DNA of 64,000 bases from Sphingosinicella sp. YJ22 (lineage in GTDB: Bacteria > Pseudomonadota > Alphaproteobacteria > Sphingomonadales > Sphingomonadaceae), in contig NZ_JAANPA010000001.1 of NCBI RefSeq assembly GCF_011320075.1, positions 170,112 through 234,111 of the forward strand, read 5' to 3'. The notes below the pieces were generated by a model that was not told where the DNA came from, did not search any database, and saw only the letters and a list, made by a program, of their open reading frames with translations. This document shows, in pieces, positions 3,330 to 15,822 of the stretch. Within the stretch, counting starts at the first letter, position 1. The number at the start of each line of letters is the position of its first letter. The translations under genes and the position numbers were made by a program.

Positions 3330-5399
3330 CTATTTCGACTCCAGAACGAAGGCACCGCCGGGCCCCGCCTCGCGGATTCGAAACACGAAATTGTGCAGGG
3401 CCGCGTCGTCGGGATGCTCCGCCGCGACCCGCTCGATGTCGCCGAGCGCAGTGTGGTCGCCGCCATCGTAACGCTGCCACAGGTCGCGCAAGCGGGCGCG
3501 GACCTCCGCGTCCATGTGCGGGACCGGCTCCCAGATCTCGATCGGGGTGGGACGGCCGCTGAGGACGACGCGCCCCATCGGCCGGTAGAGGTCGGTGTCG
3601 GTCACGTCCTTGACCGCGGTGCTGACGAGGATGCTGGTCTGCAGCGCCTTGTTGGCGGATTCCAGCCGTGCTGCCGTGTTCATGCCGTCGCCGAGCGCGG
3701 TGTATTGGATTCGCTTCTGCCCGCCGAAATTGCCGACCACGACGTCGCCGAGGTGGAGGCCGACTCGGGTGCGGCCGATCGTCGGGAGGTCGGCATCGGC
3801 GGTTCGGCGGAACTCCTCGCCGGCCTCGAACATGGCGATCGCTGCCCGCACGGCGCGCTCGGCGTCGTCCGGCCGGCTGATCGGCGCGCCCCAGAAGGCG
3901 ACGACGGCGTCGCCGACGAACTTGTCGATCGTGCCGCCATGGCTGAGGACGGTGTCGCTCAGAGTGTCGAGATAATGGTTGAGCAGCGCCGACAATCGCT
4001 CCGGCTGGATGCCGTGGCTCAATTTGGTGAAGCCTTCGAGGTCGGTGAACAGGGCGTAGATCTGCTTCTTCTCGCCCTTCAGAGCGAGCCGCTCGGGATC
4101 GCGCATGATCTGGGCGGCGACGTCGGCGGGGAGATATTTGCCGAGCGCCGAGGACGCGAACTTGCGTTGCTCCGACCCGACCGCGCGTGCGGCGATGCCG
4201 GCGCCGAGCACGGCAAGCAGCCAGCCGGCGCCCCAGCCCGCGGCGGGCAGGTGAATGGTCTCGACCTCGTTCGCTTCCAAAAAGAACGGCACGGCGGCGA
4301 TCAGCGCGACCTGGACGATGACCGCGAGTCCGAGAATCCAGCCGCGGCCCTCGAGCACGGCGGTCAGCACGCCGCCGGCGACGATCGCCACCGCGATCGC
4401 CCACAGCAGCCAATCCGGGATTGGCCTCGGCATCCGCCCGTCCAGCACTTGCGACAGCATGTGCGCGTGGATGATCATGCCCTTGGTGAAGGTCTGGCCA
4501 TCCTGCCGGGTCCGCGACATCGGCGTTTCGAAGTCGTCGAGCAGCTGGATGTTGCCGCCGAGGATGATGTAGCGGCCCTCGATCGTCGGCCGAAGACTCT
4601 CGGCGATCGCCGCGCTTTCCTCGGGGGGCAGGTCGCCGCTGGCGAGCGAGGCCAGCATCTCGACGGGAAGCTCCGTGAACGGCTGGATCTCGGGGCTGTC
4701 GGTGAGGCGATAGTCGATCGCGCCGCGATAGCCGACGAAGGCGCGATGCTCGGGCGCCATCGCGCTGGCCAGGAAGGTCGGCAGATGCGGGTCCAGCTCC
4801 GGCCAGCGCCGCATCACGCCGTCGGCGTTGTCCGGCCGGAACTGGATGCTCGCCGGCCGTACCGGGCCCGAACGCACCTGATCGAGGAAGTTGCTCAGGA
4901 ATTGCTCCTGCCAATATTGCATCTGCTCGGGATTGGCCTGCGTCGTCGTGAACGCGAGGAAGGTGGGCGTGCGCATCGCGCGCATCGTGGCGATCAGCTC
5001 GGCATCTTCGGGCTGGGCCTGGTCGATCAGGATGTCGATGCCGATCGCGCGCGGGTTCATGCGGTCGATCGCGCGAAGCGCCTGGGCCATCATCCGCCGG
5101 TCGAGCGGCGAGCGCTTGCCGAGCTGCTCCAGAGTCTGGTCGGTATAGGTGACGAGCGTGATTCGGTCGTCCTGGCCGAGCCGGTCGGCCGCCCAGAAGA
5201 AGCGCAGGTCGTAAAGCGCGCGTTCGGCATCGCTGGTGAGCGGCATCGTCCAGCTGGAGCGAGCGACGGTGAGCGCGATGCCAAGCAGCAGCAGCGTCAG
5301 GATCAGCCGAGCGACGCCGATCTGGCGGAGCGTCCGGCGAACGCCGATCAGGCCGCGGCGCCCTTCCTGCTGCACAGCCCGGGTGCCCGCGTCGGCCAT
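3330..5399 (-). CDS. CHASE2-type sensor adenylate/guanylate cyclase
   Basis: Membrane-anchored class III nucleotide cyclase of 689 residues, probably making cAMP or cGMP in response to an extracytoplasmic signal. The order is a first TM near residues 31-51, a periplasmic CHASE2-like domain to about 330, three closely spaced TMs to about 420, and a C-terminal class III catalytic domain. Metal-binding aspartates are visible in FTDLEGF (about D453) and FVGDAVVAFWG (about D497), with the usual 44-residue spacing; GDVVVGNFGG and GDGMNTAARLE follow. ATG 5399 has a GGGAGGGGAG ribosome site; an upstream in-frame start (5465) lacks one. It heads the run with the two exported paralogues and is divergent from the ECF sigma gene. 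Confidence 0.92.
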   Translation of the reverse strand: MADAGTRAVQQEGRRGLIGVRRTLRQIGVARLILTLLLLGIALTVARSSWTMPLTSDAERALYDLRFFWAADRLGQDDRITLVTYTDQTLEQLGKRSPLDRRMMAQALRAIDRMNPRAIGIDILIDQAQPEDAELIATMRAMRTPTFLAFTTTQANPEQMQYWQEQFLSNFLDQVRSGPVRPASIQFRPDNADGVMRRWPELDPHLPTFLASAMAPEHRAFVGYRGAIDYRLTDSPEIQPFTELPVEMLASLASGDLPPEESAAIAESLRPTIEGRYIILGGNIQLLDDFETPMSRTRQDGQTFTKGMIIHAHMLSQVLDGRMPRPIPDWLLWAIAVAIVAGGVLTAVLEGRGWILGLAVIVQVALIAAVPFFLEANEVETIHLPAAGWGAGWLLAVLGAGIAARAVGSEQRKFASSALGKYLPADVAAQIMRDPERLALKGEKKQIYALFTDLEGFTKLSHGIQPERLSALLNHYLDTLSDTVLSHGGTIDKFVGDAVVAFWGAPISRPDDAERAVRAAIAMFEAGEEFRRTADADLPTIGRTRVGLHLGDVVVGNFGGQKRIQYTALGDGMNTAARLESANKALQTSILVSTAVKDVTDTDLYRPMGRVVLSGRPTPIEIWEPVPHMDAEVRARLRDLWQRYDGGDHTALGDIERVAAEHPDDAALHNFVFRIREAGPGGAFVLESK

Positions 5400-5586
5400 T
5401 GCTCCCCTCCCGATTTCCCCTGGGGCGGAGGCTAGACCGCACCGGGCGAGAAGAACAGGCCCCAATCGTCGACGGGCCCGGGACGACTATTTGACCCGCT
5501 TCGGCGCAAATCGCCCGCGCGACTTGCGGGAACCCGCACCTCGTCTATCATGATGCCGCTTTGTTCCCATCTCTCCTCAGGCCCGC

Positions 5587-6135
5587 GTGGCAACGGTGAG
5601 CATAGAACCGCTAGACCCCTCGTCCGGCGGGACGCCGGGGGACAGGCAGAGCCTGTTCGACCACGCGCGCGAGCATCACATCGCACTGATCAACCGCATC
5701 GCCTTGTCCTACGAGATCGACCCGGCTTTGCGGCGTGAGTTGGTTCAGGACATCATGCTCGCGCTGTGGATGGCGCTTGCCACCTTCCGCGGGGAATCCT
5801 CTCTCAAGACCTTCGTCGCCTCGGTCGCTCAGAAACGGTCCATTTCGCACGTGACTCGCCGTGCCCGCGAGCCGAGACAGGAGGAGCTGTCGCCGGATCT
5901 GCCGTCGTCCGGGCCGCGGCCGGACGAGATCGCGGTACAGAACGACATGAAGCAGCGCCTCGTGGAATCGATCCAGAAGCTGCCGATCCCGCAGCGCGAG
6001 GCGATCGTGCTCACCCTCGAAGAGTTCAGCTATGCCGAGATCGGTGAGGTGCTCGGCATCACCAGCAACGCGGCCATGCTTCGCTGCCAGCGCGCCAGGG
6101 CCGCCCTGAAGGCCATCATGGAGACTCGCTCATGA
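5587..6135 (+). CDS. ECF-type RNA polymerase sigma factor
   Basis: A 182-residue sigma-70 family factor of the extracytoplasmic-function class. Region 2 is recognisable (LVQDIMLALWMALATFRGESSLKTFVASVAQKR, of which the latter part is the -10 helix), and region 4 is the HTH in QREAIVLTLEEFSYAEIGEVLG followed by a second helix. A GTG start at 5587 is the first in frame; the ribosome site is weak, and GTG 5596 is an alternative. Its stop overlaps the next start (ATGA), a typical sigma/anti-sigma arrangement. The regulon is unknown. The start region is divergent from the cyclase gene. Confidence 0.9.
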   Translation: MATVSIEPLDPSSGGTPGDRQSLFDHAREHHIALINRIALSYEIDPALRRELVQDIMLALWMALATFRGESSLKTFVASVAQKRSISHVTRRAREPRQEELSPDLPSSGPRPDEIAVQNDMKQRLVESIQKLPIPQREAIVLTLEEFSYAEIGEVLGITSNAAMLRCQRARAALKAIMETRS

Positions 6136-6755
6136 GCACGGGCGACCTCGACGACCTGGCGACCCTGTGGCGCGCCGAGCCGGACGCTGCCGAGCAGGAG
6201 GAGCTTCAGCGGCTCGCCGGCAGGGCGCGTTGGCGCGGCCGGCTTGTCGACTATGTCGATCTGGCGATGGTCGCTCTGGTGATCGGAGGCAGCATCGTCG
6301 CCGCTTTCGCTGCGCGCAGCCCGCTGCTGATGGCCGCGGCGCTGGTCCTCATCGTCGCGTCGGTTTGGCTGACCTGGAAACGGCGGATGATCCGCCAGGT
6401 GACTCGTGACCTCGTGACGACGGATCGCGACAGTTTCCTTTCCGGCAGCATTCGCCATACCAAGGCCAATCTGCGCCGAAACACGCTGAGCCTCGTCGCT
6501 TTCCCGCTGATCGTCCCGCTCGCCGTGATTCTGAAACGCGCAGCGACGACCGGCGGGGACCCCAACGCCGTGCTCACTGGCCTGGCCGAATGGGCGGGCT
6601 CGCAACGCGGCGTCATCACGCTCTCGGTCCTGTCGCTCATGATCCTGTTCCTGCTTCGCAGCCGGCATCGCCATAAGGCGGAATTGCGGCGGCTGGAGGA
6701 CCTGCGACGGGCCTACGAGGACGAGGCGCGGATGGATGGCGAAGTCGACTTATAA
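6132..6755 (+). CDS. Four-TM membrane protein, putative anti-sigma partner
   Basis: A 207-residue protein translationally coupled to the sigma factor by a 4-nt ATGA overlap. A soluble N-terminus (LDDLATLWRAEPD) precedes TM segments at about residues 41-60, 64-84, 115-133 and 155-172, ending in a charged cytoplasmic tail. No zinc-binding HxxxCxxC anti-sigma motif is present. The coupling and topology suggest a membrane anti-sigma factor or sensor for the adjacent ECF factor, but sequence alone does not prove it. Confidence 0.7.
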   Translation: MSTGDLDDLATLWRAEPDAAEQEELQRLAGRARWRGRLVDYVDLAMVALVIGGSIVAAFAARSPLLMAAALVLIVASVWLTWKRRMIRQVTRDLVTTDRDSFLSGSIRHTKANLRRNTLSLVAFPLIVPLAVILKRAATTGGDPNAVLTGLAEWAGSQRGVITLSVLSLMILFLLRSRHRHKAELRRLEDLRRAYEDEARMDGEVDL

Positions 6756-6843
6756 ACAGCTTTTCCCGCCTGTTTCCCGGGAGTTTCCCCAGTTGCGTCC
6801 ACAACTTAGTCGCTAACCCCGGACAGGAATCCTTCCCTTTCGA

Positions 6844-6882
6844 GACTGTTGCCGACGGGGTGGCGATGCCGCGGCAACAGTC
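6844..6882. promoter_or_regulatory. 11-bp perfect inverted repeat upstream of the peptide cassette
   Basis: GACTGTTGCCG (6844-6854) is matched by CGGCAACAGTC (6872-6882) with a 17-nt spacer. It lies 35 nt before the small-peptide gene and after the sigma/membrane pair. It could be an operator for a dimeric regulator or an mRNA leader hairpin; there is no T run, so it is not a simple terminator. Confidence 0.6.
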
Positions 6883-6917
6883 GACGGCGAACCTCCTCCA
6901 GAGGACAGGAGGACGAC

Positions 6918-7046
6918 GTGAAGAAGATGGACATCGGAAGGATCCCGGAGTTGCGGACCCGGGTCGGGGTGCATGGTTCCGCCAAGCAGAAGGAAGTCGG
7001 CGGCGCGGCCTGCGTCGGCGTCGTCATCGCGCTCATCACGACCTGA
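6918..7046 (+). CDS. Small GG-motif peptide (42 aa), candidate RiPP precursor
   Basis: GTG 6918 sits 5 nt after a strong AGGAGG. The 42-residue product has a charged N-terminal part (KKMDIGRIPELRTR, then VGVHGSAKQKE), a VGG pair, and a hydrophobic, Cys/Thr-containing end (AACVGVVIALITT). This leader-GG-core layout is that of many ribosomally made, modified peptides and GG-leader bacteriocins. It is followed by an intercistronic hairpin and two larger genes that could encode processing proteins. No lanthipeptide, radical-SAM, lasso or YcaO enzyme, protease or exporter is visible nearby, so the class is unknown. Confidence 0.65.
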   Translation: MKKMDIGRIPELRTRVGVHGSAKQKEVGGAACVGVVIALITT

Positions 7047-7053
7047 CGGGATG

Positions 7054-7076
7054 GGGAGGGGCGGGCGTCCCCTCCC
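7054..7076 (+). promoter_or_regulatory. Intercistronic hairpin between peptide and enzyme genes
   Basis: GGGAGGGG (7054-7061), 7-nt loop, CCCCTCCC (7069-7076), immediately after the peptide stop and before the ribosome site of the next gene. It has no T run. Such hairpins often stabilise the precursor mRNA or lower expression of downstream genes; that role is inferred. Confidence 0.6.
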
Positions 7077-7103
7077 GCCCACCTTCGCGGGGAGGACAGG
7101 AGC

Positions 7104-8102
7104 GTGAAAGCCAGCGATAGCCTGGCCGAATGGTTCGGCGACGCCGGAGCGCAGGCCAGGACGATGGCGCTCGCCGAAGGCGTGGCGCGGCACGTCGCGT
7201 CGCTGCCCGAGCTGCGCCGTCTCGAGGCCGATCTCTCGGCCGCAGGGGGGCGAAGCGCCGCGGCGGTGCTCGACGCGGCCCGAACCTTCCTCGACGACGA
7301 GCACGCGGTGGCGGCGTGCCTCGCGCCCCTGATCCAGGCGGCGCGCTCGGACCCCTTCTTCCGCCCGCCTCTGCGCCACGGATCGAGCCCGGTTCATACC
7401 GGCCTGCTGCTGTTCGACCGGCCCGAGCTGATGATCTTCCTGTCCGTCGTGTCCGCCGAAGCGGTCGCCGCCAAGCGCGTGTTCCGCCAGGGCGGAGCCT
7501 CGATCATCCTTCCGGGAACCCGCTCCCTCTACAAATTCCTCAGGTCGGGCGACGCGACCCTGTCGATCTGGGAAGCGCCCGAGGTCGACGGGGATTTCAG
7601 CTCCTCGGCAGGCACCAGGTGCCGCCGCGCCGAGCGCCGCCGGATGCGGGACGGCGAGACACTCGAGCTCGACGGGGGCCGGCAGACCTTCGTGATCGAC
7701 CACGCCGTGTCCGACATCGTCTATCTGCACGCGACCACCCAGGTCGACGCGGCGCCGCTGTCCGTCCAATATGATTCCGAAACCCTCGAGTTCGTCGGCG
7801 CAAGCAGCACCGACGAAGCGAGCTCGCGCGCCCATTTGATGCTGTCCCTGCTGCGCAGCATGGACCGCCAGGACGCGGCGCCCGTGTTCGAAGCGATGCT
7901 GAAGAGCCCGCATTTCTACATGCGCTGGGCGGCGATGCGCGACTTCCTCGGGCTCGACGCGGACCGCGCCCTTCCGCACCTGCGGGAAATGGCACGAAGC
8001 GACGACCATCCTGACGTGCGCGAGGCGGCCGCCCAGACCCTGGCGCTGCTGGTTGCCGATGATGAAGCGACCGAAAGAGAGGACGTGCCATGCCTCGCGT
8101 GA
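7104..8102 (+). CDS. Uncharacterised protein with cupin-like core and HEAT-like C-terminus
   Basis: No named family recognised. GTG 7104 follows GGAGGACAGGAG, nearly the same leader as the peptide gene. The 332 residues divide into a helical N-terminus (1-90), a beta-rich middle (about 97-235) that may be a double-stranded beta-helix (FRQGGASIILPGTRSLYKF, DGETLELDGG, IVYLHATT), and helical repeats (about 255-316: HFYMRWAAMRDFLG, then HLREMARSDDHPDVREAAAQTL) resembling HEAT units. The cupin metal-ligand pattern is poor here. Its 3' end overlaps the next gene by 13 nt, so the two proteins are probably made together. A role in modifying or binding the small peptide is inferred from context. Confidence 0.7.
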   Translation: MKASDSLAEWFGDAGAQARTMALAEGVARHVASLPELRRLEADLSAAGGRSAAAVLDAARTFLDDEHAVAACLAPLIQAARSDPFFRPPLRHGSSPVHTGLLLFDRPELMIFLSVVSAEAVAAKRVFRQGGASIILPGTRSLYKFLRSGDATLSIWEAPEVDGDFSSSAGTRCRRAERRRMRDGETLELDGGRQTFVIDHAVSDIVYLHATTQVDAAPLSVQYDSETLEFVGASSTDEASSRAHLMLSLLRSMDRQDAAPVFEAMLKSPHFYMRWAAMRDFLGLDADRALPHLREMARSDDHPDVREAAAQTLALLVADDEATEREDVPCLA

Positions 8103-9025
8103 TCGACACCGAAGCCGCGGACTCGATCGAGCTCGGCGACCTCGTCGAGATGCTCGAGGCCGGCCCGTTCGATCCCGAGGACGAGGGCTGCGTCGCGGAA
8201 TGGGGGCCGGCGCTCAAGCGGCTGGCCAACAACCGCCGCTTCATCGGCGATCTCGTGATCGAGGAGCTCAAGCAGCGCTGCGCCGGGCAGCTCAAGAACA
8301 ATTACTACACCACCCAGGTGCTGCTGCTGCACCGCGCGCGGACGTTCGCGCTCCGGGCGAACTTCTGGCCGGCCGAAGGCGACAGCGCCCTCGCCAATAG
8401 CGGCCGCGAGCCGTTCTTCTACGACGTCCCGCACGACCACAATTTCTCGTTCCTGACGGTCGGCTATCACGGGCCCGGCTATTGGAGCGACTATTACGAA
8501 TATGAGTATGGCCAGGTCGTCGGCTATCCCGGCGAGAAGGTCGACCTTCGCTTCGTAGAGCGGTCGGCGCTGAGCGAAGGCAAGGTCATGCTCTACCGCA
8601 AGCATGTCGACGTGCATCGCCAGCTGCCGCCGGACTCGCTGTCGGTGTCGCTCAACATCATCGCGCTGTCCGCGGTTTCCGATTTTCGCGACCAGTATCG
8701 CTTCGACGTCGATCGCTCCGAGGTGGCGTCGATCGTCAACCACACCGGCCTCGAGACCCTGATCAGGCTCGCCGCCCATTGCGGTGGCGGCAACGGGCTG
8801 GATCTCGTCGAGAGCTGCGCGGAGAGCCATCCGAGCGGCCGCGTGCGGTTCGCGGCGTGGCAGGCGAAGGCGTCGCTGCGTGACGATGTCGATGGGCGCA
8901 TCGCGGTCTACGAGGAAGCGGCCGCGGGCGCGGGCGGTCTCGCGGCCGCGACGGCGGCGCGCGAAGTGGAGCGCATCAAGGCGACGCGGCACTGGATCGA
9001 CGGCGCTCCGGACCTCGCCGCCTGA
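8090..9025 (+). CDS. Uncharacterised His-rich cupin-like protein with HEAT-like tail
   Basis: A 311-residue protein translationally coupled to the preceding gene. After a helical N-terminus (to about 85), residues 108-195 carry clustered possible metal ligands: H115 and H117 in PHDHNFSFLTVGYHGPGY, H127, acidic E137/E139 in YEYEYG, then H172 and H176 in KHVDVHRQL. This spacing suggests a metal-dependent cupin or 2-oxoglutarate-oxygenase-like fold, but it does not match the textbook cupin motifs exactly. Residues about 210-305 look like HEAT helices. If the adjacent peptide is a RiPP precursor, this is the best candidate for a modifying oxygenase. Function remains unassigned. Confidence 0.7.
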   Translation: MPRVIDTEAADSIELGDLVEMLEAGPFDPEDEGCVAEWGPALKRLANNRRFIGDLVIEELKQRCAGQLKNNYYTTQVLLLHRARTFALRANFWPAEGDSALANSGREPFFYDVPHDHNFSFLTVGYHGPGYWSDYYEYEYGQVVGYPGEKVDLRFVERSALSEGKVMLYRKHVDVHRQLPPDSLSVSLNIIALSAVSDFRDQYRFDVDRSEVASIVNHTGLETLIRLAAHCGGGNGLDLVESCAESHPSGRVRFAAWQAKASLRDDVDGRIAVYEEAAAGAGGLAAATAAREVERIKATRHWIDGAPDLAA

Positions 9026-9173
9026 CCACAAAAATTTTTCGGCTGCAGCGACAGGTTTTGCCGAGGGCGGTGACTAAGCGGTTTGGAGGGGGTGTCCACG
9101 GCCCTCGCGGCCGCGCTTCGGCGCGCCGCCAAGCGGTGGAAGGATCAAGACCTCTGTCCTGAGGTCCCACTCG

Positions 9174-9199
9174 GAGGCGGCTTCGGCCGCCTCTTTTTT
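9174..9199 (+). terminator. Intrinsic terminator after the peptide cassette
   Basis: GAGGCGGC (9174-9181), TTCG tetraloop, GCCGCCTC (9186-9193), then TTTTTT (9194-9199). A textbook rho-independent terminator on the plus strand; the T run reaches the stop codon of the convergent malate synthase gene. Confidence 0.9.
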
Positions 9200-13460: not shown

Positions 13461-14237
13461 CTAGGCCTTCAGCCGGTATCCGGTGCGGAAGATCCAGGCG
13501 ATGACGGCGAGGCAGAGCAGGAAGAAGGCGAAGGTCGCCGCAAGCGCGTAGCCGACCGGCACGTCGGCGGTGCCGAAGAAGGTCCAGCGGAAGCCGTTTA
13601 TCAGGTAGACGACGGGGTTAAACAGGGTGATCGTGCGCCATGGCTCGGCGAGCATGTCGATCGAGTAGAAGGCGCCGCCGAGGAAGGTCAAAGGCGTTAC
13701 AACGAGCAGCGGAATGACCTGAAGCTGCTCGAACCCCTTGGCCCAGATGCCGATGATGAATCCGAACAGGCAGAAGGTCGCCGCGACCAGAAGCAGATAG
13801 GCGAGCATCAGGAAGGGATGCGCGATCTGCACGTCGACGAAGAGGTTGGCGGTGGCGAGGATCACCAAAGCCACGATCGTCGCTTTGGTCGCCGCCGCGC
13901 CGACATAGCCGAGCACCGTCTCGAACGCCGACATCGGCGCCGACAGAAGCTCGTAGATGGTTCCGGTGAAGCGCGGCATGTGGATGCCGAAGCTCGCGTT
14001 GAAGATGCTCTCGGTGAACAGCGACAACATCATCAGGCCGGGGACGATGAAGCTGCCATAGGCGATGCCGTCGATCTCGGTCATTCGGCTGCCGATCGCC
14101 GCCCCGAACACGACGAAATAGAGCGACGTGGTGATCACCGGCACCGCAAGGCCGGTCCACAGCGTTCGGCGGAAGCGGTGCATCTCGAAGCGGTAGACGG
14201 CCAGCACGCCGCGATGGTTGAACGCGCCGACGCTCAT
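13461..14237 (-). CDS. ABC-2 type transporter permease
   Basis: Inner-membrane permease of 258 residues with six TM helices, typical of the ABC-2 group. After a short cytosolic lead ([20 protein letters not shown]) come TMs around [33 protein letters not shown], and the conserved [20 protein letters not shown], followed by [12 protein letters not shown]. It overlaps the ATPase gene by ATGA (14234-14237), so the pair forms one transporter. The cargo is unknown. Confidence 0.92.
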
Positions 14238-15178
14238 GACCGTGCCTCCCCTAGTCTTCGGTCGCTCACCAGGCTGACGAAGATTTCTTCCAGCGAGCTC
14301 TGGTGGGTGTTGAGGTCCTTGAACTGGATGCCCGAGTCACGCATCGCCGTCAGCAGGGAGGGGATGCCGGTGCGCTCGCCCTTGGGATCGAACACGTAGT
14401 GAAGCTCGGTGCCGTCGCCGTTCAGCGTGAGGTTCCAGTCGGCAAGCTCCGGCGGCACGGCGGCGAGCGGCTCGGCGAGCTGAAGCGTCAGCTCCTTCTT
14501 GCCGAGCTTGCGCATGAGCGCGTCCTTCTCCTCGACCAGGATCAGCTCGCCCTTGTTGATGACTCCAACGCGGTCGGCCATCTCCTCGGCTTCCTCGATA
14601 TAATGGGTGGTGAGGATGATGGTGACGCCGCGCTCGCGAAGCTGCCGAACCAGGTTCCACATGTCGCGGCGAAGCTCGACGTCGACGCCAGCGGTCGGCT
14701 CGTCGAGGAACAGGATTTCGGGCTCGTGGGCGAGCGCCTTGGCGATCATCACCCGGCGTTTCATGCCGCCGGACAGCTCCTTCATGATCGTCCGTCGCTT
14801 GTCCCACAGCGACAGGTCGCGGAGTACCTTCTCGATATAGGCATCGTCGCCCGGCCGGCCGAACAAGCCGCGGCTGAACGAGACCGTCGACCATACCGGC
14901 TCGAACGCGTCGGTATGGAGCTCCTGCGGCACGAGGCCGATCTTGGTGCGCGCGGCGCGATAGTCCCGGACAATGTCGTGACCGTCGATGGTCACCGTGC
15001 CGCCCGACGGATTCACCAGACCGCAGACGATGCTGATCAAGGTCGTCTTGCCGGCGCCGTTGGGGCCGAGCAGGGCGAATATCTCGCCTCGGCGAATCTC
15101 CAGATCGACCGGCTTCAGAGCGACCGTGCCCGACTTGTAGGTTTTCGATAGGCCGCGGATCGATAGGACGGAATCCAT
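14234..15178 (-). CDS. ABC transporter ATP-binding protein
   Basis: A 314-residue ATPase for the adjacent ABC-2 permease. Walker A is GPNGAGKTT, the signature is LSGGMKRRV and Walker B is [13 protein letters not shown], with a final switch His in TTHYIEE. A C-terminal extension (about 230-314) is typical of drug/polysaccharide ABC-2 ATPases. ATG 15178 ([17 protein letters not shown]) is preferred over a long upstream extension that overlaps yciB. It lies 11 nt after yciB in the dapF-to-permease run. Confidence 0.93.
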
Positions 15179-15189
15179 TGGGTCGGCTC

Positions 15190-15822
15190 TCACTGCACCG
15201 GCGGGACGGGCGGATCTTCCTTGACCTCGCCGGCCTCGAGCCCGTGGCGCATCAGCATCGGCACGTTGGCGAGCGCGAAGACGAAGGTCGCCGGGAGGAA
15301 GAACCACAGCTTGAAACCGATCCAGAAGTCGGTGCTCTGGGTGCGCCACACCGCCTCGTTGACCACCGCCATCACCAGGAAATAGCCGATCCAGTTGCGG
15401 GTGAGCAGCTTCCAGCCGCGCTCGGACAGGCCCGGATAGACCGACTCCAGCACCATCTTGAGGAGGTTGCGGCCGGTGACGAGGCCGAAGGTGAGCAGGC
15501 CGGCGACGAGGACGTAATAGATGGTCGGCTTGACCTTGATGAAGGTCTCGTCGTGCAGCCAGATGGTGATCCCGCCGAGCACGAGCACCATCGCGCCCGA
15601 GAAAAGCAGCAGCGGCGAGATGTGCTTGTAGCGGATCTGCGAGTAGATCATCGCCGCGAACATGGCGGCCATGAAGGCGCCGGTCGCGTAGAAGACCCTG
15701 AGCTGATCGGCGACCGGGGCGAAGCCATTGGTCAGGAAGAAGACGAGCAGCGGACCGAGATCGATCAGCAGCCGCGCGCCAGCGCTGGGACCGGCGGGCT
15801 TGGTGGTGGCGGCGTCGGTCAA
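15190..15822 (-). CDS. yciB: Inner membrane-spanning protein YciB (septation protein A family)
   Basis: A 210-residue polytopic inner-membrane protein of the YciB/IspZ family linked to cell-envelope growth and division. Recognisable parts are [15 protein letters not shown] near the start, the central TMs, and the C-terminal [17 protein letters not shown] block. About five to six TMs. Its start overlaps the ftsY stop by ATGA, placing it in the ftsY operon as in many alphaproteobacteria. Confidence 0.93.

Follow-up and report, generated by a model that had tools for sequence, protein, structure and literature searches.

A small peptide gene conserved beside two predicted cupin/HEAT-like proteins in Sphingomonadales: a candidate RiPP-type cassette

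The cassette and its peptide

We examined a stretch of 64,000 nucleotides from Sphingosinicella sp. YJ22 (hereafter the window), in which a three-gene cassette on the forward strand (window positions 6918-9025) encodes, in this order, a peptide of 42 amino acids and two larger proteins, here called P1 and P2. A sequence-only reading had described these genes as a possible new cassette for a ribosomally synthesized and post-translationally modified peptide (RiPP). The tiny gene with its strong ribosome-binding site, the two overlapping larger genes, which have 13 nt in common, and the terminator behind them, a nine-pair stem with a T run, are all present as described (Table 1); the number of terminator-like sites, two against a mean of 1.5 in shuffled sequences, is ordinary.

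A contig scan with P2 yielded 68 loci, nearly all from Sphingomonadales plus Lysobacter and Alteromonas, the window being the 69th. A frame occupies the place of P1 ahead of P2 in all 68; it is incomplete in L003 and L053, which are cut upstream by a contig edge, and in L025 and L039, where it is broken or short. Iterated peptide profiles place the peptide gene before P1 in the window and in 66 of the 68 loci, both misses being loci cut by a contig edge, and loci outside the seed were matched at the same place ahead of P1-P2 (for example L015, 2.8e-18, and L041, 5.9e-26). The sequence-only reading had made co-occurrence across Sphingomonadales its check, and the peptide, P1 and P2 do stand together in nearly all loci of the P2 scan. 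Of 398 genomes sampled across the phylum, 15 encode P2, and 13 of these 15 are among the 19 that belong to the window's family; in a sample of 149 family genomes, 55 have P2. A profile of the peptide type found in the window (type A, below) matched 11 of these 149 genomes; ten of the matches share the strand of P2 and sit 0.9-1.25 kb upstream of it, the remaining one (E = 0.0015) lies off the locus in a genome that bears P2, and the 94 family genomes lacking P2 gave none. Because the profile matches lie beside P2 and are absent from P2-less genomes, and because pN/pS of the peptide gene is low (0.18 for type A, from two pairs so labeled of which one is L025/L028, and 0.29 for type B, whose pairs are not independent), we conclude from sequence comparison that the peptide is a real gene tied to P1-P2. 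A short precursor-like gene adjoining its presumed modifying enzymes and conserved with them, one of the marks of a RiPP pathway, is thus what we find. P1 diverges fast, with 63 of the 69 loci (window included) in one P1 similarity cluster. Conserved neighbors beyond the cassette are mostly lineage-specific according to clustering, and therefore the module consists of the three genes.

The peptide of the window begins with a leader-like part, KMDIGRIPELRTRVGVHGS, followed by VGG-AA-C and a hydrophobic tail. Alignment across the loci gives a bipartite picture, in which a common half, P[DE]LxT..[VT][GA]xxG, precedes divergent tails that are V/I/L-rich and transmembrane-like in most members; the shared N-terminal half is leader-like in sequence. 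In type A, VGG-x(1,2)-C leads into the hydrophobic tail, with Cys in 16 of 16 aligned sequences, all selected for the VGG...C motif (the window, 12 Sphingomonadales loci, two Lysobacter copies and Alteromonas). The alignment omits one Lysobacter peptide, the second-cassette peptides of L008, L009 and L016, and the peptides of L025 and L028, which score with the type A profile and have no Cys. Type B peptides, which occur in Novosphingobium and in many Sphingomonas, retain the leader-like half and have a Cys-less tail, mostly after D/N residues. Mapped onto the P2 tree, the VGG...C label requires 5 changes where shuffles require 14.9, and is thus clustered without forming a single clade. The intercistronic hairpin reported between the peptide gene and P1 is no stronger in the window than in shuffled sequences (z = -0.66), but z is -2.4 or below in 7 of the 11 type A gaps folded; type B gaps, mostly -4 to +39 nt, lack room for a hairpin.

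Lysobacter carries three tandem peptide copies. More distant P2 copies are accompanied by other small open reading frames (ORFs), chosen by ribosome site and by tail or leader rather than by profile (L097, L098, L099, L100, L145, L146, two in L140, L142, L141/L144 and L147/L148). The peptide of L142 is located after P2 and again reads VGGPLC, the second pair of L140 has no peptide directly ahead and one after, and the peptides of L147/L148 carry the leader MKELTLEDAEFVSGG.

Table 1. Coordinates of the cassette and of two upstream genes in the window.
Feature	Position	Strand	Basis or remark
Peptide gene (42 aa, precursor-like)	6918-7046	+	GTG start at 6918, stop ends 7046; ahead of P1-P2 in window and 66 of 68 loci
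Ribosome-binding site AGGAGG of peptide gene	6907-6912	+	Sequence
VGG codons, peptide residues 27-29; possible leader end	6996-7004	+	Sequence; putative cleavage at VGG
Cys32 codon of VGG-x(1,2)-C; candidate modification site	7011-7013	+	Cys in 16 of 16 motif-picked sequences; putative role
Intercistronic gap with hairpin, peptide gene to P1	7047-7103	+	Folding against shuffles
P1, 332 aa: helical N-terminus, cupin-like beta domain (~92-235), HEAT repeats (246-317); predicted non-catalytic partner	7104-8102	+	
P2, 311 aa: thiol-dioxygenase-like cupin (~8-217), C-terminal HEAT-like helices (220-304); predicted 3-His metal oxygenase	8090-9025	+	
P2 codons H115-D116-H117 (HxH metal-ligand motif)	8432-8440	+	His 115 and 117 in 84 of 84 P2s
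P2 codon H176 (third His ligand)	8615-8617	+	His in 84 of 84 P2s
Intrinsic terminator of cassette	9173-9199	+	Stem 9173-9194, 9 pairs, T run
ECF-type sigma factor, upstream; possible regulator	5587-6135	+	Profile scans; same neighbor in 7 loci including window (cluster 26)
Membrane protein, overlaps sigma gene; possible anti-sigma factor	6132-6755	+	Same neighbor in 8 loci including window (cluster 25)

Predicted folds of P1 and P2

P2 is predicted to fold as a cupin beta-helix matching solved thiol dioxygenases. Its best structural matches in the PDB include CDO and 3-mercaptopropionate dioxygenase, and folds like those of ADO and the plant cysteine oxidases are matched as well; these lists, obtained with VIA-align, inform on fold only and leave room for families that they do not contain. 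The five His residues that had been taken as a sign of a metal oxygenase (115, 117, 127, 172 and 176) are all present in the window, but only H115, H117 and H176 are invariant, in 84 of 84 sequences (a comparison that leaves out L065, whose P2 is cut by the contig); among 51 sequences, His occupies position 127 in 4 and position 172 in 39. The invariant residues form a His triad of metal-ligand type and a predicted metal site. The beta-helical core asked about in the sequence-only reading is therefore predicted, and the conserved site in it is of the 3-His type seen in thiol dioxygenases, not a 2-His/acid site. P2 is thus a predicted iron oxygenase with three His ligands and the fold of thiol dioxygenases. 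Six P2 positions track the peptide type, and none of them is a metal ligand. A link to "Gln-type" thiol dioxygenases through Gln76 was set aside; the residue is aligned, and is Q in 78 of 84 sequences, but the alignment is too weak to use.

The predicted structure of P1 (predicted local distance difference test score, pLDDT, 93.6) has a cupin-like domain followed by HEAT repeats, and the Pfam family HEAT_2 matches at 36.2 bits against a cut-off of 27.7 (E = 7.6e-9). Profile comparison of P1 with P2 (hhalign E = 2.4e-6, probability 89%) indicates that the two are paralogs and aligns the C-terminal part of P2 with the HEAT region of P1. That both proteins end in HEAT-like repeats is thus borne out by Pfam for P1; P2 alone gives no HEAT match, and the claim depends there on the alignment with P1. 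At the P1 position equivalent to H176 the residue varies, and among 47 sequences His reaches at most 20 in any alignment column. Because a conserved His is absent, P1 looks like a pseudo-enzyme, probably a metal-free partner of P2, rather than a second oxygenase. Sequence searches of the PDB returned one weak match for P1 and none for P2, and profile searches gave designed helical proteins or chance-level matches.

The proposed pathway, its alternatives and the neighboring genes

On balance we favor the view, with fair but far from complete confidence, that the cassette comprises a RiPP-type precursor and a P1-P2 pair that would bind the leader and likely oxidize the core. This view starts from what is observed at the loci, namely gene order, conservation, coding constraint, the His triad of P2, its absence in P1, and the linkage to exporters or to TldD/TldE in some relatives, together with the folds predicted for P1 and P2. 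The leader half (PELxTxVGxxGS) would be recognized by the P1-P2 pair, perhaps via the HEAT arms, and P2 with Fe(II) and O2 would oxidize the C-terminal core. In the subfamily of the window the target is probably Cys32 of VGG-x(1,2)-C, and the product may be a sulfinic acid or another oxidized form; TldD/TldE could then trim the leader, and an ABC pump encoded elsewhere could export the product. Since Cys-less precursors are found with the same intact P2 site, the general reaction must be something other, or broader, than Cys oxidation.

Exporter and protease genes adjoin the cassette in some relatives. In L033 genes for HlyD, ABC and MacB/FtsX proteins run up to the tandem peptides, and an ABC ATPase gene overlaps the end of P2; in L036 an ABC ATPase and an ABC-2 permease follow P2 with overlapping genes; and in L016 an ABC exporter, HlyD and a MacB/FtsX permease are encoded after the second cassette, an arrangement that L008 shares by clustering and gene order. 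L140, which has two P1-P2 pairs, also encodes an ABC ATPase, a permease of ABC-2-like type that scores below the Pfam cut-off, and HlyD-ABC-MacB proteins, and in L142 HlyD and MacB/FtsX genes lie on the opposite strand. Two TldD/TldE-type genes begin 2 nt past the P2 stop in L146, the second with an HExxxH motif, and the genome of the window has two such genes elsewhere. The statement that protease and exporter are lacking is therefore true beside the cassette of the window but does not extend to these relatives (L146 for the protease; L033, L036, L016 and L140 for exporters). Two candidates were rejected: SohB in L140 is probably a resident gene, and an ABC ATPase/permease pair encoded on the opposite strand of the window (13461-15349), which is also found next to a superoxide dismutase gene in L002, L005 and L007, was not counted as the exporter.

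Several results weigh against this interpretation. No Pfam family matches P2 at E up to 1, and its profile comparison with actual thiol dioxygenases is weak (hhalign with 13 homologs, E = 0.0034, probability 9.6%). The SHY triad of small-molecule thiol dioxygenases is altered: S187 is kept in 83 of 84 sequences, the His is replaced by Asn (N189) in 84 of 84, and the Tyr by M/L/I/V at position 191 in 84 of 84. Cys is absent from 55 of the 72 peptides found, and therefore thiol oxidation cannot be the common reaction. We found no precursor-like ORF for the distant copies L139 and L143, two other short ORFs at the peptide place in L139 having been judged not precursor-like. Only a single genome, that of L146, shows the TldD/TldE link, no exporter or protease adjoins the cassette of the window, and among the neighbors covered by clustering most Sphingomonadales loci have none. 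No modified product is known.

Another possibility, which we regard as unlikely, is that the peptide is exported unmodified as a membrane-active or signaling molecule, with P1-P2 serving as chaperone, immunity or export-coupling proteins and the cupin used for binding only. The transmembrane-like tails, their wide variation beside a common leader half, and the exporters linked in some relatives would suit it. However, the full His triad of P2 and the residues around it are kept in 84 of 84 sequences, which would be needless for pure binding, and the TldD/TldE-type pair and GG-type leader point to maturation. Slightly less likely still is an oxygen- or thiol-sensing pair comparable to ADO or the plant cysteine oxidases, in which the peptide is a small membrane regulator, its Cys oxidation or turnover the signal, and the extracytoplasmic function (ECF) sigma pair the read-out. 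This would agree with the ADO-like fold matches, with the replacement of the SHY His in ADO and plant cysteine oxidases too, as given in the accessible part of one report (PMC8503633), and with the sigma gene and membrane gene nearby in 7 and 8 of 69 loci; but the Cys-less majority of peptides and the lack of the sigma pair from most loci argue against a sensor, and exporters, tandem precursors and TldD/TldE suit a secreted product better.

The matches to CDO and 3-mercaptopropionate dioxygenase could also mean that P2 is an ordinary small-molecule thiol dioxygenase with an incidental small ORF beside it. This seems very improbable given the conservation of the peptide under purifying selection with leader-like motifs, the extra HEAT-like domain and adjacent paralog of P2, and the changed SHY triad. 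Finally, 12 of 120 P2 homologs among the matches listed are named transposase (e.g. P0022, P0033 and P0112). P2 has no transposase family match, a predicted thiol-dioxygenase cupin and a fixed three-gene context; the name seems to be a propagated misannotation, and a transposase identity, to which we assign next to no probability, is refuted as far as sequence and fold allow.

Other observations concern genes and sites near the cassette. The ECF sigma and membrane genes recur solely with VGG...C peptides, and the membrane protein has no Pfam match above cut-off. By eye, a TTTTCC...GGGACTA-like stretch, which could be a promoter or leader element, lies upstream of type A peptide genes in the window (6740-6800, the least clear case), L002, L004-L009 and L016. 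A gene of cluster 13 directly follows P2 in about 19 loci, many from Sphingomonas, and the copy at L014:6985-7305 encodes a winged-helix Trans_reg_C protein; at that place L008 carries another small gene, which Pfam does not match. At L099:9060-9401 a hydrophobic, probably membrane protein of 114 aa without a Pfam match is encoded directly after P2 and is a candidate immunity or export helper. L147 has a two-module nonribosomal peptide synthetase gene (L147:18-5663) near a P1-P2 cassette with a GG-leader precursor, and on its opposite strand an ORF of 77 aa with an IGGG motif and two Cys (L147:6196-6426) that looks like another precursor. In the window, positions 3330-5465 of the reverse strand encode a protein with a CHASE2 sensor and an adenylate/guanylate cyclase, and a similar gene is found in L002, L005 and L006 (cluster 36). 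Pfam and NCBIfam scans of the proteins gave no match of PqqD or RiPP recognition element type, and phage and defense libraries gave nothing relevant for the peptide, P1 or P2; a PADLOC match to P1 (E = 0.074) was weak and was discarded.

Significance and comparison with known systems

We put at about even the chances of a more specific proposal: a new RiPP class, in which a heterodimer of a catalytic thiol-dioxygenase-fold protein and its His-less twin, with HEAT arms holding the leader, oxidizes highly diverse peptides in their core, at Cys in the VGG-x(1,2)-C branch and at other residues elsewhere, and which is widespread in Sphingomonadales, present in Gammaproteobacteria and partly hidden under the name transposase. 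The new peptide-modification system suggested from the sequence alone gains from the conservation of the peptide with the pair and from the fold and triad of P2, but in altered form, with a 3-His site, a His-less P1, and exporters or a protease in some relatives. If true, this would be a common yet unnoticed peptide pathway, since P2 is present in more than a third of the sampled family genomes. The known peptide-modifying chemistries would then include a 3-His oxygenase paired with a pseudo-enzyme, and genome mining would gain a simple signature (HDHN ... DxHxQ ... SLN with a small ORF alongside), while the Cys-less precursors imply that the fold may perform chemistry other than thiol oxidation. 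In the mostly open-access literature covered, preprints excluded, we found among the papers listed no report of a thiol-dioxygenase-fold enzyme or HEAT-cupin pair as core RiPP modifier, nor of a cysteine dioxygenase tied to a RiPP precursor peptide, which is not proof of novelty.

Thiol dioxygenases (CDO, 3-mercaptopropionate dioxygenase, ADO and plant cysteine oxidases) resemble P2 in predicted cupin fold and 3-His ligands. P2 differs from them in about 90 additional C-terminal HEAT-like residues, in the adjacent His-less paralog and linked peptide gene, in having Asn and M/L/I/V for the His and Tyr of the SHY triad, and in its lack of a Pfam match. Double-glycine-leader bacteriocins, and darobactin-type export through MacAB, share with our loci the GG motif, hydrophobic cores and the HlyD-ABC-MacB/FtsX genes beside some cassettes. 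The canonical GG leader has a hydrophobic residue at position -4; the window peptide has VGG but E at -4, type B peptides have no such GG site, and the classical form is seen only in L147/L148. A match to NF038010 in the profile scan was weak.

According to the part of PMC10885120 available to us, TldD/TldE cuts the leaders off microcin B17, klebsazolicin and other peptides, and its genes often lie away from the cluster. The TldD/TldE-type pair of L146 and the two such genes in the window's genome are reminiscent of this maturation; unlike microcin B17, the P1-P2 cassette is without a YcaO/azoline enzyme, and the link is seen in a single genome. Cupin oxygenases are already known from RiPP clusters. 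Genes for cupin-4 proteins adjoin NHLP precursors (PMC9426513, in the portion available), and the biphenomycin-like pbs cluster, as described in the accessible part of PMC12257519, encodes PbsQ, a JmjC-related tailoring hydroxylase of the cupin superfamily, beside an MNIO, an arginase and a B12-rSAM enzyme. The pbs cluster and the proposed P1-P2 pathway have in common a precursor gene, a cupin-superfamily oxygenase and a TldD-type HExxxH protease in the pathway. Unlike the pbs cluster, as far as that part describes it, the P1-P2 cassette has the thiol-dioxygenase-fold pair as its only candidate modifier, and it is probably a new RiPP class.
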